DNA from: a virus
IMG/VR virus record: IMGVR_UViG_3300046167_000527
Coordinates: 1-42,204 of that record
Length of the DNA: 42,204 nt
Reading direction: 5' to 3' (one strand)
This document shows positions 2-14,723 of this stretch, piece by piece; the first letter of the stretch is position 1, and each line of letters begins with the position of its first letter. Made by a program: the position numbers and the translations under genes. The notes under the pieces were generated by a model that was not told the DNA's origin, ran no database searches, and saw only the letters and a program-made list of their open reading frames with translations.

Positions 2-730
2 GAAGGACGTCCGTTAATTGGCGAACCAACTCCGTATAGTCTGCACCGATCCGAGACCACCATCAGGTTAGTCAACGAGAGATTTGAGCAATGGGGCATC
101 CATGTTCGATTGCGACTCGTCGGCACCTTTGCATCTAAAAGTCCGGTCGCTCTCTCGTATCACCAATACATCGAAGATGGTACCATACCACCTGCTGACT
201 TCATTGCTAACAATCAATCAGCTGGTGCAGGTTACTGTGGTTTTGCTGGACAGACCGCCCATTTCCGTGACCATAAACGTAAGAATCACTACCTGACCTT
301 CCATAACGGTTGTAGCACTGACACATGGTTACACGAGATGGGTCACTCTATCGGTCTGGGACACGGACCACAATCAGAAAACCCAGGTGGCGGTGCTACC
401 TTCCCTGACTTTGCTCAAGGAACAGGTGGTGGTAGTGTGTGCGGACCAAACTATGACATCATGACATATGGTGGTGGTTGGAACAATAAGTCATTCACCA
501 GTCCATACGTTGATTGCGAGAGACACTATCCAGACAAGTACAAGCAGTATCACGGCACCCCAAGTGGTGACACGACACACTCTGCGACTGGATATGCTAT
601 CAACCGTATCCGATACGATGTCTCCCTTGTCCACGACGAGTGGGAACACCCAGAAGCAACAGACAACCCACTAGAGGCAATGTTTGATCCTGACTACAAC
701 GAACCAGTATATCAGGTGATTTATGACTAA
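2..730 (+). CDS. Secreted zinc metallopeptidase, metzincin-like (5' end outside window)
   Basis: The frame is open from base 2 with no start in view, so the N-terminus lies upstream. About 111 visible residues in is HEMGHSIGLGH, which fits the metzincin zinc motif HExxHxxGxxH. About 45 residues later comes YDIMTYGGG, which looks like the conserved Met-turn beneath the zinc site. The region before the motif (NERFEQWGIHVRLRL) and the C-terminus (AINRIRYDVSLVHDEW) align by eye with the protein at 1100-2494, so the two are paralogues. Its stop overlaps the next start (ATG 723) by eight bases. Inference: an exported protease acting on host envelope or extracellular protein; the substrate is unknown. 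The signal peptide cannot be seen here. Confidence 0.8.
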   Translation, partial: EGRPLIGEPTPYSLHRSETTIRLVNERFEQWGIHVRLRLVGTFASKSPVALSYHQYIEDGTIPPADFIANNQSAGAGYCGFAGQTAHFRDHKRKNHYLTFHNGCSTDTWLHEMGHSIGLGHGPQSENPGGGATFPDFAQGTGGGSVCGPNYDIMTYGGGWNNKSFTSPYVDCERHYPDKYKQYHGTPSGDTTHSATGYAINRIRYDVSLVHDEWEHPEATDNPLEAMFDPDYNEPVYQVIYD

Positions 731-1103
731 GATCTTACTCCCGTTAATTGCTGCGTTGTTCCTTGCCAGTTGTGATAGTAGTCCTACCTCTAAAATGGGA
801 TCGGACGACTATTACTTCGAGGGCAAGGAGTATACTCTCATCGACCAGAAATACACCTTTGTCGTTGTACCTAACGAGAAAGAGTGGAATGCTCTGGCAG
901 ACAAGTATGTCGGCATCCCTGGAAAGGACTTGGGTGCCTTCAGTCGTTTGCGTTTAAACAGAGCATCACCAACACTCGAAGGATCTGAGTGTGTAGTGTA
1001 TATTCGTGACCCGAACTGGGTTTACGAACCGGAATTCATTGGTCACGAAATCATACATTGTCTGTATGGCAAGTGGCACCCAAATCAGAGAGGCAAAGGA
1101 TGA
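723..1103 (+). CDS. Lipoprotein with HExxH zinc-peptidase-like motif
   Basis: 126 residues. The N-terminus is a short basic start, a hydrophobic stretch and a lipobox ending FLASC (Cys17), so the mature protein should be lipid-anchored. Near the C-terminus is GHEIIHCLYGKWH: HExxH followed by a third His seven residues after the second, one residue longer than the classical metzincin spacing. It sits between two metzincin-like genes and overlaps both (ATG 723 inside the upstream gene, ATGA at its end), so the three are translationally coupled. It is small for a protease. It could be a minimal peptidase, or a zinc-binding partner or inhibitor of the neighbours. The motif is seen; the function is inferred. 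Confidence 0.75.
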   Translation: MTKILLPLIAALFLASCDSSPTSKMGSDDYYFEGKEYTLIDQKYTFVVVPNEKEWNALADKYVGIPGKDLGAFSRLRLNRASPTLEGSECVVYIRDPNWVYEPEFIGHEIIHCLYGKWHPNQRGKG

Positions 1104-2494
1104 TGCGTCTTATACCAATAGCAGTTTTACTTCTGACTATCGCAGGATGCGACAAGTCAGACAACGATAACTCAACAGCACCAGTCACACCAGTTGACCC
1201 AACTCCAGTGACTCCAGTGACTCCGGTTATTCCTGTCGACCCAAACCCAGAAGAGGGCACAATCCTGTCCACCGAGTGCGAAGAGACAACTCAGGTTGTT
1301 GAAATCGCAGACGGTAACGGTGGTTCCACTTTCGAACGAACTGAAAAGTCGGAAGAGTGTGGATATGTCGAACCAGAGGTGGTCGTCGAAGTCGTTCGCA
1401 GAGAGGGAGACTACTTTAAGGGTGCCTTGATCTCTGTAACAGGGGATGCGGAATGGGACTACTCAGTCGAGGCAGGCAACGTGACTGTCACTGACGAAGG
1501 TCTTGAGATTACCTCTGACGGTCGACTCGGTGTTTGGAATGTCACCATCAACGACAAGGTGTATCAATACGAGTTTATCGCACCACCATTGTGCGAGAAG
1601 ACATTTATTGACACTTATAACGCGGTGGACTGTCTCGGCAACTCAATTGGTCCTCGTTCTGCCAATATGATCTATTACGGAGAACCACAAGAAGACCAAC
1701 AAGTGGTAACCATCGAACTTGGCATCGCAAGGTCAGCATCTCGATGCGATGAGAACTGTGAAGACGGTTCTATAGTCCCAGCAGACCACCCAGATAGGGT
1801 GAGAGTGGTCGAGGCACTCGAAGAGGCAAATGCATTCAATGAGAAGCATGGCGTCTATATCCGATGGGAACTGACCGAGATGATATGGTTGGCACCATGG
1901 TACGATGTGTACTCATTTGGTCCATCAAAGTTCCTGACTGATATGTCTGACGTTGTGTATGGGTGGGGCGGTTCTGGTGGCAACGGTGGTCAAGCATTTA
2001 TGCCATCTTCCATCTATGAAGGCATGCGCACCCCAACCCCTGTCGGCACCGTCATGGGTGGTAATGGAGGAACCATGATGCACGAACTGGGACACGCAAT
2101 GGGTCTTGGACACGGTGTTTGGGGCATACCAGATTGGCAAGGTCCAGTCCTCGACTCTCTCGGGATGCAAGGTGGTAGTATCTTCCCTTGGTTTGGTCAT
2201 GGGTGGGACGGTAGAAACCCGAACGGAGTCTGTGGTACTCAGGGATCAGTCATGTCCTATGGTTCTTCTGCTATGTGGTCAAACTCTCTGATCAGTTGTG
2301 ACGACCTCGGATACCCAGCAGGGAGATTCGGAGACGATGCAGGGTCACGATACCACAGTGACGAAGCATATCACCTGAATCGAATCCGATACTCATACTC
2401 TCTGATCCACAACGAGCATAAAAATGCTCAAGCATATAAACCTGAAGTTGTGGAAGACGAAGAGTATGACAGAGGCACCCTAGTCAATGACTGA
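1100..2494 (+). CDS. Lipoprotein metzincin-like zinc metallopeptidase
   Basis: 464 residues from ATG 1100, chosen because it forms an ATGA overlap with the upstream stop and places a lipobox (LLLTIAGC) directly after the start. A Pro/Thr/Val-rich linker with repeated PVTP-type units follows the lipid-attachment Cys. The C-terminal half carries HELGHAMGLGHG (HExxHxxGxxH) and downstream GSVMSYGSS, a plausible Met-turn. The C-terminus (HLNRIRYSYSLIHNE) matches the paralogue at 2-730. Family knowledge: metzincins are secreted zinc endopeptidases. Inference: a membrane-anchored, periplasmic or surface protease made by the infected cell. Such a domain on a phage lipoprotein is unusual. Confidence 0.85.
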   Translation: MMRLIPIAVLLLTIAGCDKSDNDNSTAPVTPVDPTPVTPVTPVIPVDPNPEEGTILSTECEETTQVVEIADGNGGSTFERTEKSEECGYVEPEVVVEVVRREGDYFKGALISVTGDAEWDYSVEAGNVTVTDEGLEITSDGRLGVWNVTINDKVYQYEFIAPPLCEKTFIDTYNAVDCLGNSIGPRSANMIYYGEPQEDQQVVTIELGIARSASRCDENCEDGSIVPADHPDRVRVVEALEEANAFNEKHGVYIRWELTEMIWLAPWYDVYSFGPSKFLTDMSDVVYGWGGSGGNGGQAFMPSSIYEGMRTPTPVGTVMGGNGGTMMHELGHAMGLGHGVWGIPDWQGPVLDSLGMQGGSIFPWFGHGWDGRNPNGVCGTQGSVMSYGSSAMWSNSLISCDDLGYPAGRFGDDAGSRYHSDEAYHLNRIRYSYSLIHNEHKNAQAYKPEVVEDEEYDRGTLVND

Positions 2495-9334: not shown

Positions 9335-9492
9335 TGGAGTTCTTTACTGTAAGGGTCGACCCCACTAGCATGGGTCGTCTACATAACTACTTTGCCACCG
9401 ACGACTGGGATACAATGCACCAGTCCATGGAGTTGATACTGTTGATGGGTGCAGATGATCCCGTCTACGGAGAGATGTGGATTAAGATATGA
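9334..9492 (+). CDS. Small hypothetical protein
   Basis: 52 residues starting in the TAATG overlap. Starts MEFFTVRVDPTSMGRLHNYF; acidic, soluble. Its TGA overlaps the next ATG (ATGA at 9489). Confidence 0.55.
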   Translation: MEFFTVRVDPTSMGRLHNYFATDDWDTMHQSMELILLMGADDPVYGEMWIKI

Positions 9493-9746
9493 CAACGACT
9501 CATGTAACTTCCAAGAAGAAAGGTGCCGACTGGTATATCAAGTGGTTGTCCACCATCCTCATCCTGACCAGTGTGGCATTCCGTTCTGCTGGACCAGAGT
9601 ACCGAGAGTGGGACATCACCATAGGGTTCATCGCAACTATCGGGTGGACATCTGTCTCCATCATGTGGAACGACCGAGCACTCATCCTCCTCAACGGAGT
9701 CATGGGTTGCCTGTTGGGTTCATCACTAATACAAATCTGGTTCTGA
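9489..9746 (+). CDS. Conserved phage two-helix membrane protein
   Basis: 85 residues from the ATGA overlap. Pattern: soluble head, WYIKWLSTILILTSVAFRS, a second helix around IGFIATIGWTSVSIMW, then NDRALILLNGVMG. I recall this arrangement (WYIKW, MW-DRA, LN) from small membrane proteins of T4-like marine phages (DUF6552 from memory). Function unknown. It sits just upstream of another membrane protein and the cytochrome. Confidence 0.7.
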   Translation: MTTTHVTSKKKGADWYIKWLSTILILTSVAFRSAGPEYREWDITIGFIATIGWTSVSIMWNDRALILLNGVMGCLLGSSLIQIWF

Positions 9747-9747
9747 T

Positions 9748-10044
9748 ATGGAAGTAAGTGAAGAAATCAAGATTGCAATACAGATACTGATCTTCGGGTT
9801 GGTTGTGGTTGCACGTCTACACATGACCTCTCACCTCGCTCGGAAACGAGTCTGGGGATTCTCTATGAATTGCTTTGCCGGAATATGCTACTGTGGTGTC
9901 ATGATCTACTCAGGGTTGTATATCCTTGCGGCAATGGATCTGGTCATCATGTGTCTGGATGCACGTGGTGTGAAGAACAACCTGCGTGATGTCGAAGACG
10001 GTCTGTTCCGTCAGTCAGAACAGGACTGTGACCATCCGAACTAG
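9748..10044 (+). CDS. Membrane protein upstream of the cytochrome gene
   Basis: 98 residues, starting two bases after the previous stop. Two or three hydrophobic helices (about residues 8-22, 37-52 and 54-68), with DARGVKNN after the last. Its 3' end overlaps the cytochrome c gene, so the two are coupled. No family recognised; it could be a membrane partner of the cytochrome, but that rests only on position. Confidence 0.6.
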   Translation: MEVSEEIKIAIQILIFGLVVVARLHMTSHLARKRVWGFSMNCFAGICYCGVMIYSGLYILAAMDLVIMCLDARGVKNNLRDVEDGLFRQSEQDCDHPN

Positions 10045-10285
10045 CATCCTGCTCCTCGTCCTCCTTGCCGGTTGTGGTGAACCCATGACCAGAGGTGAGG
10101 CAAAGTACCGAGTATGTGCTGGATGCCACGAGGGTGGCATAGGACCAAACCTCCGAGGCAGGGACGTCGCCGACTCCCTGCGATCCTTCCGAGATGGAGA
10201 GGGCAATCCTCTCATGCAGTCTCAGGCAAGTAACCTGTCCGATCAGGACATATCCGATATATCAGAGTATCTCCTAACCTATTGA
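10028..10285 (+). CDS. c-type cytochrome lipoprotein
   Basis: 85 residues from GTG 10028, chosen because it puts a lipoprotein signal directly after the start (TSILLLVLLAGC, lipid Cys16); an in-frame ATG at 9989 would give a longer head. The heme-binding motif CAGCH is at 30-34, followed by GGIGPNLRG as in small class I cytochromes c. Met63 in GNPLMQ is a candidate distal heme ligand, and the last segment (LSDQDISDISEYL) matches the usual C-terminal helix. Family role: periplasmic one-electron carrier between membrane complexes, matured by the host Ccm or Ccs system. All core elements are intact. Confidence 0.85.
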   Translation: MTIRTSILLLVLLAGCGEPMTRGEAKYRVCAGCHEGGIGPNLRGRDVADSLRSFRDGEGNPLMQSQASNLSDQDISDISEYLLTY

Positions 10286-10286
10286 T

Positions 10287-10355
10287 TCTATTCAAGTTTT
10301 CACTGTTGTCTTTGGTACTGGGTTGCGGGATAATAGATTCAATGGTTAAGGAGAT
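10287..10355 (+). promoter_or_regulatory. Early promoter cassette copy 4
   Basis: Starts just after the cytochrome stop (TTGATTCTATTCAAGTTTT). -35 TTGTCT at 10306-10311, 17-base spacer, -10 GATAAT at 10329-10334, then AGATTCAATGGTTAAGGAG. Confidence 0.8.
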
Positions 10356-10359
10356 TGAT

Positions 10360-10700
10360 ATGGAACTGGATTTTGATACCGCTGTTGATAAGTTGCTTGA
10401 TGCCGCTGCTACCGACTTTGCTCAATGGAAAGCAAGAGGAGAATATGGTAGTGCCAACGACTTCGAAGACTTCCGAGAGAACATCTACCGCGACGGTGGT
10501 CGTAAGTACCTCCGCATCACCAAGAGTCAAGGTGGTCAGCAGATGCGTCTGGGGTTTCGTCGTGTTAGCAGACGGTCCAAAGTTCAAGTGTGGTGACATC
10601 CTGAAGGCAGCATCTTGGGCAGCACCCGCCACCTAACAAAGCACGCGGCAACATCTTCGAAGAGTATGATGTTCGCTGGACCGGTCCAAACTACCTGTAA
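10360..10700 (+). pseudogene. Conserved T4-like phage protein, frame broken twice
   Basis: From ATG 10360 the frame reads MELDFDTAVDKLLDAAATD and continues to about 10541. The expected continuation VWGFVVLADGPKFKCGDILK is in the +1 frame, and after a stop at 10634-10636 the ending ARGNIFEEYDVRWTGPNYL is in the next +1 frame, stopping at 10700. I recall similar small phage proteins with the continuous order V-x-F...GDILKA..W.AP...ARGNI...WTGP. The ancestral gene is therefore about 112 codons with two one-base frame changes. Either a decayed gene or two sequencing insertions; the well-preserved protein sequence on both sides favours the latter. Confidence 0.6.
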
Positions 10701-10711
10701 GGAGAAATGGT

Positions 10712-10956
10712 ATGATGCAATGTTACTTCACCGAGCGCACTGACCCGAGAGCAAATGCTCGAGACTGCACCCTGTAAGACCATCCACTGGGACTGACCCC
10801 TTCAAGGTGATCAAGAAGGGTCGTGGTATCTTCGACGAGCACGGATACAAGTCAGGGTACACCTAAGAACCACCGAGACGAATTCGGTATGGCATATATC
10901 TGGTCAGAAGCGCAGACAAGATGTTTGTGCGCAAGCATGGGACGACCCCACTGTGA
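10712..10956 (+). pseudogene. Hypothetical phage protein gene, frame broken several times
   Basis: A good ribosome binding site (AAGGAG) precedes ATG 10712 (MMQCYFTERTDPR). Protein-like segments then follow in successive frames: KTIHW, DPFKVIKKGRGIFDEHGYKS, PKNHRDEFGMAYIWSEA and DKMFVRKHGTTPL, ending TGA 10954-10956 in a GTGA overlap with the next gene. The first three shifts are +1, near AAA (10753), GGG (10789) and GGG (10855); the last is -1 or +2 near 10909. The overlapping stop and the conserved-looking segments suggest a once-intact gene of about 80 codons. Confidence 0.5.
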
Positions 10957-13864: not shown

Positions 13865-14154
13865 TGGCGAAGAAGACCGAGATAGATTACAAGTACAGTG
13901 AAGACCGCATCCTCGAAGAACTCAAGGCATATGTCGATAAGACATACGGTGAGCACTACTCTAAGAACAAGTTCCAAGCAACCGAGTTCATCATCGACGG
14001 TGGCCACGGAGAAGGTTTCTGCCTCGGTAACATCTTAAAATACACCCAGCGTTATGGCAAGAAGGCAGGCAAGAATCGTGCTGACCTGATGAAAGTTGTA
14101 CACTATGCCATCATCGCACTGCACGTCCACGACCTCGGTCTGGAAGATGATTAA
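13864..14154 (+). CDS. DUF3310-like (SaV-like) protein
   Basis: 96 residues. The central block FCLGNILKYTQRYGKKAGKN followed by ADLMKVVHYAIIAL matches the conserved core of DUF3310/SaV-like phage proteins (F..GN..KYI.RYG.K......DL.K..HY). These occur in many phages, often near nucleotide metabolism genes; a nucleotide kinase role is known for the T7 gp1.7 relatives. It overlaps both neighbours. Confidence 0.75.
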   Translation: MAKKTEIDYKYSEDRILEELKAYVDKTYGEHYSKNKFQATEFIIDGGHGEGFCLGNILKYTQRYGKKAGKNRADLMKVVHYAIIALHVHDLGLEDD

Positions 14155-14723
14155 TCATTTCGAGTTCAGGAATCTCTGGCCAACTCCTCTGTTAAAGACT
14201 CGGGTCGACCTGCCTCACGAAGAAATCTCAGAGTATGTCAGAGAAAAATTCTCTGGGTGGGATGAGTACACCAGTTTCTACAACGAAGAATTCAACGAGC
14301 ATACCAAGAAAGGGTTGCCGTATCGGCAACTCATGGAACGTGCTATGACAAGAGGCGGGGATCTGTTTCTGAAGGAAAGAAACTATAGTGTCCCAGAGGA
14401 GAAACTATCCTATTGGTTCTCTGTCTACAACCACTCAGACGACCACTGTCTACACACCCACCCCCAATACTCTCATTGCCGGAACATACTACCCGTATGC
14501 CGATGAGAAAAGTTCTCCTATCCGATTCCGGTCACCCACTCTGGTTACTCAGATGCACTCTGAACCGAGGATCGAACCAGAGGATTTGTTCCACGTTCAC
14601 CAACCCAGCACCGGTGACATGCTCTTCTGGCCAGCATGGTTAGAGCACGAAGTGCGACCCCAGAAAGAAGTGGAAGACGGCAAATCCAGAATCGCAATCT
14701 CCTTCAACTTCGGTCGATGCTAA
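14147..14723 (+). CDS. 2OG-Fe(II) oxygenase-like protein, split by a +1 frame break
   Basis: From ATG 14147 (ATGA overlap) the protein starts MINHFEFRNLWPTPLLKTRV and reaches YWFSVYNHSDDHCLHTHP, then runs off-family to a stop at 14506. In the +1 frame the family sequence resumes exactly as NTLIAGTYYP, then WPAWLEHEVRP and RIAISFNFGRC, stopping at TAA 14723. The HTHP...LxAGxYY...WLxHxV...R pattern is that of the phage 2OG-Fe(II) oxygenase group. Dropping one C from the five-C run at 14461-14465 restores a 191-residue protein. The TAA at 14721 is also the start of promoter cassette 5. Confidence 0.75.

Follow-up and report, generated by a model that had tools for sequence, protein, structure and literature searches.

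A predicted membrane-tethered cytochrome c in marine phages and its partial pairing with an alternative oxidase

Results

A cytochrome c lipoprotein gene is predicted among phage genes

The window, a 42,204-base virus record (IMGVR_UViG_3300046167_000527) analysed at its full length, holds the phage-type genes nrdA/nrdB, an exonuclease gene, a cytidyltransferase gene and a phrog_455 gene, together with a cytochrome gene that is flanked by viral genes, the context of an auxiliary metabolic gene (Table 1). The nearest annotated record to the phrog_455 protein is Phage C48C1 (68%; 156 kb, circular, Kyanoviridae); the next nearest are Stenotrophomonas, Methylophilales, cyanophage and Pelagibacter phages. 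From phrog_455, nrdA/nrdB and the other phage-type genes we infer that the window phage is T4-like; neither gp23 nor terminase is present within the window.

Table 1. Positions of the features discussed (window positions unless a record is named)
Feature	Position	Strand	Evidence or remark
ORFs with HExxHxxGLGH motifs	2-2494		weak reprolysin / M66 matches
DUF6552 small membrane protein, upstream neighbour	9489..9746	+	PF20189, E 1.8e-14
98-aa hydrophobic protein	9748..10044	+	no Pfam match; homologues in L001, L005
Predicted cytochrome c lipoprotein, 85 aa	10028..10285	+	Pfam and PDB matches, alignment, model, colinear L001 copy
Lipobox codons L-A-G-C; Cys16, predicted lipidated residue	10064..10075	+	sequence; kept in L001
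CAGCH haem-binding motif, residues 30-34	10115..10129	+	Cys, Cys, His invariant in 49 aligned relatives, partly selected by CxxCH/Met motifs
Met63, predicted distal haem ligand	10214..10216	+	invariant in alignment A3
Frame-broken genes, just 3' of the cytochrome	10300-10950		intact in L001 (110 aa, 79 aa)
2OG-Fe(II) oxygenase gene, over two frames	14096-14723		single 208-aa ORF in L001
Alternative oxidase (ubiquinol oxidase), 188 aa	17416..17982	+	PF01786, E 7.1e-62; GTG start overlaps preceding stop
NPLR protein, L086	4126-4461		example
NPLR protein, L094	4011-4346		example
NPLR protein, L048	3498-3905		example
NPLR protein, L149	2403-2717		example
NPLR protein, L016	1609-1905	-	example
MWPxA-subfamily cytochrome, L189	3539-3841	-	plain signal peptide

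The initial annotation had read the cytochrome ORF as an 85-residue lipoprotein with a lipobox, a CAGCH haem site, a GPNLRG stretch and a candidate distal Met, and translation of the ORF (VTIRTSILLLVLLAGCGEPMTRGEAKYRVCAGCHEGGIGPNLRGRDVADSLRSFRDGEGNPLMQSQASNLSDQDISDISEYLLTY, followed by a stop codon) bears out every one of these features. The lipobox is formed by L13-A14-G15-C16 and GPNLRG spans residues 39-44. Read by eye, the N-terminus shows a basic n-region and then ILLLVLLAG-C, a lipobox-type signal peptide, which suggests a bacterial lipoprotein that would be acylated and held at the membrane. Translation may begin at the GTG at 10028 or at an in-frame ATG at 9989, the latter also found in L001, a colinear relative of the window; the lipobox is unaffected by this uncertainty. 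Among the 293 stop-to-stop frames of at least 60 codons in the window, CxxCH occurs in the cytochrome ORF only. CxxCH and the distal Met are also present in the complete loci of an earlier 18-locus scan that did not demand both motifs, and in a PDB sequence search Vibrio c554 and P. nautica c552 align their M..QA motif with Met63. Three short deletions, of about 4, 3 and 4 residues relative to the aligned sequences, make the window protein a compact version of the family.

The protein belongs to the c4/c554-type class I cytochromes by sequence and modelled fold

Profile searches of the cytochrome exceeded the Pfam cut-offs for both PF13442 (E 9.7e-10; 39.1 bits vs 27) and PF00034 (E 4.7e-5; 25.1 bits vs 21.3), and phmmer against the PDB returned cytochrome c4, Vibrio c554 and c552 with E-values from 4e-8 to 1.5e-5. 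An AlphaFold model built on 49 related sequences reaches block-mean pLDDT values of 93-98 from residue 21 on and shows the all-helical class I fold, with helices at residues 22-34, 48-55, 61-67 and 72-84. The model superposes on Colwellia cytochrome c 4o1w (Z 10.0), P. nautica c552 (Z 9.9) and Vibrio c554 (Z 9.6), with rmsd values to c552/c554 of 1.3-1.7; PDB entries 1cno and 2zzs are among these Z 9-10 matches. It also superposes on the c4 subunit in 8smr, the bc1-cbb3 supercomplex of Pseudomonas aeruginosa (Z 9.1, 43% identity). Domains of thiosulfate dehydrogenase, flavocytochrome c and cd1 nitrite reductase are matched as well. Because Foldseek gives these fold matches weak E-values (2e-3 and above), the VIA alignment, combined with the sequence, is the basis of the fold assignment. 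An NCBIfam search of the cytochrome gave sub-threshold matches only, and a BFVD fold search gave no credible match.

Pfam, PDB sequence and fold matches thus agree on the cytochrome c identity proposed at the outset, and the Pfam scores and fold rule out a chance CxxCH. The suggestion that the gene could represent a new class could apply only to its being viral; the protein itself reads as an ordinary c4/c554-type class I cytochrome c, to which haem would be attached covalently. It shares family, fold, CxxCH and the M..QA..LS distal Met with the gammaproteobacterial cytochromes c4, c552 and c554 (6q2u, 8smr, 1cno, 2zzs, 4o1w), yet differs from them in being a viral gene product with one short domain, three small deletions and a predicted lipid tether; cytochrome c4 has two haem domains.

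A colinear relative carries the gene, and the locus is variable

Two small membrane proteins had been noted upstream in the same transcript. Both indeed lie on the same strand, the DUF6552 ORF separated by 1 nt from the 98-aa ORF and the latter overlapping the cytochrome ORF by 17 nt at its 3' end; a shared transcript is suggested by this spacing. The record L001 has the same gene order, with compared genes 91-97% identical in DNA and a cytochrome protein 94% identical; between the two cytochromes dN/dS is 0.27, from few changes. The gene is therefore not confined to the window among related phages, and because L001 carries it in identical order with diverged DNA, a chimera is an unlikely source of the window cytochrome. 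In L004 and L005, DUF6552 is about 80% identical to that of the window and the cytochrome is absent; L005 keeps the 98-aa gene and diverges after it. These differences mark the locus as variable.

Of the 45 phage records tested, 17 contain DUF6552, whether or not a cytochrome is present, and the family is frequent in marine phage records. As an obligate partner of the cytochrome it was rejected: L004, L005, L007 and phage C48C1 have DUF6552 without one.

The window record contains several frame breaks outside the cytochrome ORF. Just 3' of the cytochrome, two genes that are intact in L001 are frame-broken, which points to indels in the window record there, the cytochrome ORF itself being intact. 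The 2OG-Fe(II) oxygenase gene is likewise split, reflecting either a sequencing error or a broken gene. At the start of the record, adjacent ORFs carry metalloprotease motifs, and one or more of them also has a signal resembling that of a lipoprotein.

Related cytochromes are widespread in viral contigs

The DUF6552 search led to L016, which bears a different, transmembrane-anchored cytochrome c. With the L016 cytochrome as query, 18 IMG/VR loci were found, and a profile of the window and L016 cytochromes matched relatives in 103 IMG/VR contigs in one scan, of which 80 were kept. Two architectures predominate among the relatives: lipoproteins, and proteins anchored in the membrane at their N-terminus that bear a C-x-GECY motif; those of L092 and L101 have a plain signal peptide. 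L189, L266 and L267 hold a further phage subfamily with a plain signal peptide and an MWPxA motif; these records also hold an alternative oxidase, and one of them is 170 kb long.

Since IMG/VR includes misclassified cellular contigs, phage status was checked on whole records. The T4-type major capsid gene gp23 is present in five cytochrome-bearing records (G019, G020, G024, G028 and G035), and a strong terminase match in G019, G020, G024 and G032. Cytochrome genes of this kind are present in true T4-like phage contigs, so the possibility that the gene is absent from phages can be set aside.

The initial annotation knew of no commonly described phage c-type cytochrome, and our searches agree: none emerged from the literature found, from the annotated phages or from PHROGs. 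A tblastn search of 50,697 annotated phages with four of these cytochromes returned nothing credible, and the window cytochrome is likewise unmatched in PHROGs; present annotation therefore misses it.

The cytochrome is partially paired with an alternative oxidase

The window also encodes an alternative oxidase, 7 kb from the cytochrome gene, that scores 209 bits against PF01786 (cut-off 22.7). Its residues E32, E72, H75, E123, E174 and H177, which we take to be the six di-iron ligand positions, all fall in invariant alignment columns, and E123 and Y130 are spaced as in characterised enzymes. The family and these six positions are common to the alternative oxidases of Halieaceae and Litorivicinaceae; unlike those, the phage copies mostly form their own clade in the oxidase tree. 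The single annotated-phage match of the oxidase, in C48C1 (65%), is labelled hypothetical.

In relatives the two genes can be immediate neighbours. The cytochrome lies directly upstream of the oxidase, with ORFs that abut or overlap, in L076, L082, L084-L086 and L088-L090 (in L086 by ATGA); in L094 and L096 the oxidase follows about 32 nt on, in L114 the order is reversed, and in L048 and L104 the genes lie within about 2.5 kb, some paired loci being near-copies of one another. G024 (151 kb) holds cytochrome, oxidase, gp23 and terminase in one record, and G198 (170 kb) holds both cytochrome and oxidase. The counts do not support an obligate pair: a cytochrome occurs in 4 of 25 oxidase records, 7 of the 44 records tested hold an oxidase, and both genes are present at 13 of about 97 cytochrome loci, although most records in the co-occurrence counts are fragments. 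Relatives of the oxidase, found in at least 563 viral stretches in IMG/VR, are far commoner than the pairing. With most records showing only one of the two genes, the proteins need not act as a pair.

On the host side, 140 genomes belonging to the same family as a Halieaceae genome include 27 with an oxidase. Phage copies sometimes sit beside a cytochrome gene, whereas none of 13 host oxidase loci (about 1.5 kb read on each side) has one; the pairing therefore looks phage-made.

About 45 loci encode, close to the cytochrome or the oxidase, a further membrane protein (about 100-135 aa) that bears an NPLR motif and matches no Pfam family (examples in Table 1). It also occurs directly upstream of the cytochrome in the marine gammaproteobacterium HTCC2148, and is absent from the window.

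Cellular relatives and selective constraint

The closest cellular copies of the cytochrome come from marine gammaproteobacteria (Halieaceae, Litorivicinaceae, Pseudomonadales), in a sample biased by a cellular scan with one short motif. In a 100-row tree, lipoprotein phages L084-L104 group with Halieaceae, L095 with Pseudomonadales, and L072, L077 and L080 with Litorivicinaceae. This clustering of phage groups with different host families suggests that the cytochrome was captured from hosts several times. The transmembrane phage copies share the architecture of the anchored cytochromes of Halieaceae, HTCC2148 and Litoricola (GCxGxCY), from which the window protein differs by its predicted lipid anchor and the lack of the GCxGxCY N-terminal region. 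The window protein itself sits on a long branch with few columns, and the tree does not group it with any donor lineage.

A separate 52-row clade of the same tree is all phage, counting L147 as a phage contig. L147 had been assigned to Rhodobacteraceae, an origin rejected on its clamp-loader-like, dUTPase-like and Hsp20-like genes and phage-type cytochrome; it is a phage contig misbinned into a Rhodobacteraceae metagenome-assembled genome. Median dN/dS values are 0.12-0.23 in four phage cytochrome groups, and the tested phage copies are under purifying selection.

Discussion

Proposed role in host respiration

We think it probable that the tethered cytochrome c and the alternative oxidase serve as phage respiratory functions that set how electrons are split during infection. 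On this proposal, the phage gene would be expressed as a minimal c4/c554-type class I cytochrome c, exported by Sec, furnished with covalent haem by the host Ccm system and tethered to the membrane by a lipid on Cys16. The analysis encountered no Ccm genes, which would leave maturation to the host. The cytochrome would supplement or replace the host's own membrane-tethered cytochrome c, dock with the bc1 complex and a cbb3/aa3 terminal oxidase and carry electrons from one to the other, such that proton pumping and ATP synthesis could persist past the shut-off of host gene expression. The phage alternative oxidase would oxidise ubiquinol with O2, bypassing bc1 and cytochrome c. Holding both genes, the phage might thereby set the split between an energy-conserving and a venting branch, to its own benefit.

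Several observations weigh against this proposal: the 7 kb between the two genes in the window, the many records with one of the genes only, and the long branch and three short deletions of the window protein. The residue that follows Cys16 also counts against such a shuttle. In E. coli, Gly after the lipidated Cys favours the outer membrane and Asp the inner membrane; by this rule the Gly after Cys16 would place the window protein in the outer membrane and so separate it from bc1 and the oxidase. L068 and L095 have Asp at this position, pointing to the inner membrane by the same rule.

The same Gly at +2 would suit a lipoprotein that acts on the surface or in the envelope of the cell, perhaps to exclude superinfecting phages, with the cytochrome fold as scaffold only, and several phages do make receptor-blocking outer-membrane lipoproteins. 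We nevertheless regard a surface role as highly unlikely: even strongly diverged copies, which are under purifying selection, retain CxxCH, the distal Met and the core of the fold, many relatives are anchored by an N-terminal transmembrane segment rather than a lipobox, and several adjoin an alternative oxidase gene. Another reading, which we hold to be unlikely, is that the cytochrome donates electrons to a periplasmic peroxidase or other detoxifying host enzyme (cytochrome c peroxidase, nitrite/NO reductase) and, with the oxidase, provides stress protection. Alternative oxidases are generally tied to oxidative and NO stress, and small soluble cytochromes of class I fold have detoxifying partners too, as the thiosulfate dehydrogenase, flavocytochrome c and cd1 nitrite reductase matches illustrate; however, the protein is matched best by c4/c552/c554 electron carriers, among them the c4 of the bc1-cbb3 supercomplex, and no peroxidase or nitrogen-oxide gene lies in the neighbourhoods read.

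There is very little chance, in our judgement, that the gene is a recent host passenger without selected function, or an assembly or binning artefact. Close cellular homologues do exist and the window record has frame breaks elsewhere, but the diverged colinear copy in L001 excludes an artefact, and many relatives are known, some of which share a contig with capsid and terminase genes. Values of dN/dS well below 1 and the 52-row phage clade, whose sole member from outside the viral collection is also phage, weigh against a passenger too.

Comparison with known systems

The closest functional parallel is probably the cyanophage set of petE (plastocyanin) and PTOX, carried by T4-like cyanomyoviruses (PMC3037559). 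Both systems join a small electron carrier to a quinol oxidase of the AOX/PTOX superfamily in T4-like phages, whereas here the carrier would bind haem rather than copper, and the cytochrome and oxidase genes overlap as one unit in some phages. The relatives of the window's genes lie in heterotrophic gammaproteobacteria, which points to respiration, not photosynthesis.

In the literature searched, one report describes viral reads of cbb3 oxidase subunit I (PMC3474794) and one survey saw no cytochromes in its phages (PMC8115048); no paper was found that describes an electron-carrier cytochrome c encoded by a phage, with most subscription journals and bioRxiv preprints outside this scope. That phages encode a c4/c554-type cytochrome widely, and paired with an alternative oxidase, thus appears to be undescribed in the literature searched.

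A broader generalisation can be offered tentatively, as a possibility that we put a little short of an even chance: marine T4-like phages of heterotrophic gammaproteobacteria may carry a respiratory control module of cytochrome c, alternative oxidase and small membrane proteins, assembled from separate host loci, that would set the electron split at the ubiquinol node as a counterpart of cyanophage plastocyanin/PTOX. Cyanophages are known to direct photosynthetic electron flow, and a comparable capture of respiration with electron-carrier cytochromes was not found described for phages of heterotrophs. With cytochrome relatives in more than 100 viral contigs and oxidases in more than 560 viral stretches, virus-driven shifts in bacterial respiration and in the O2 use of infected marine cells are now directly testable. 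The recurrence of both genes side by side in marine phages suggests that viruses keep or rewire host respiration.
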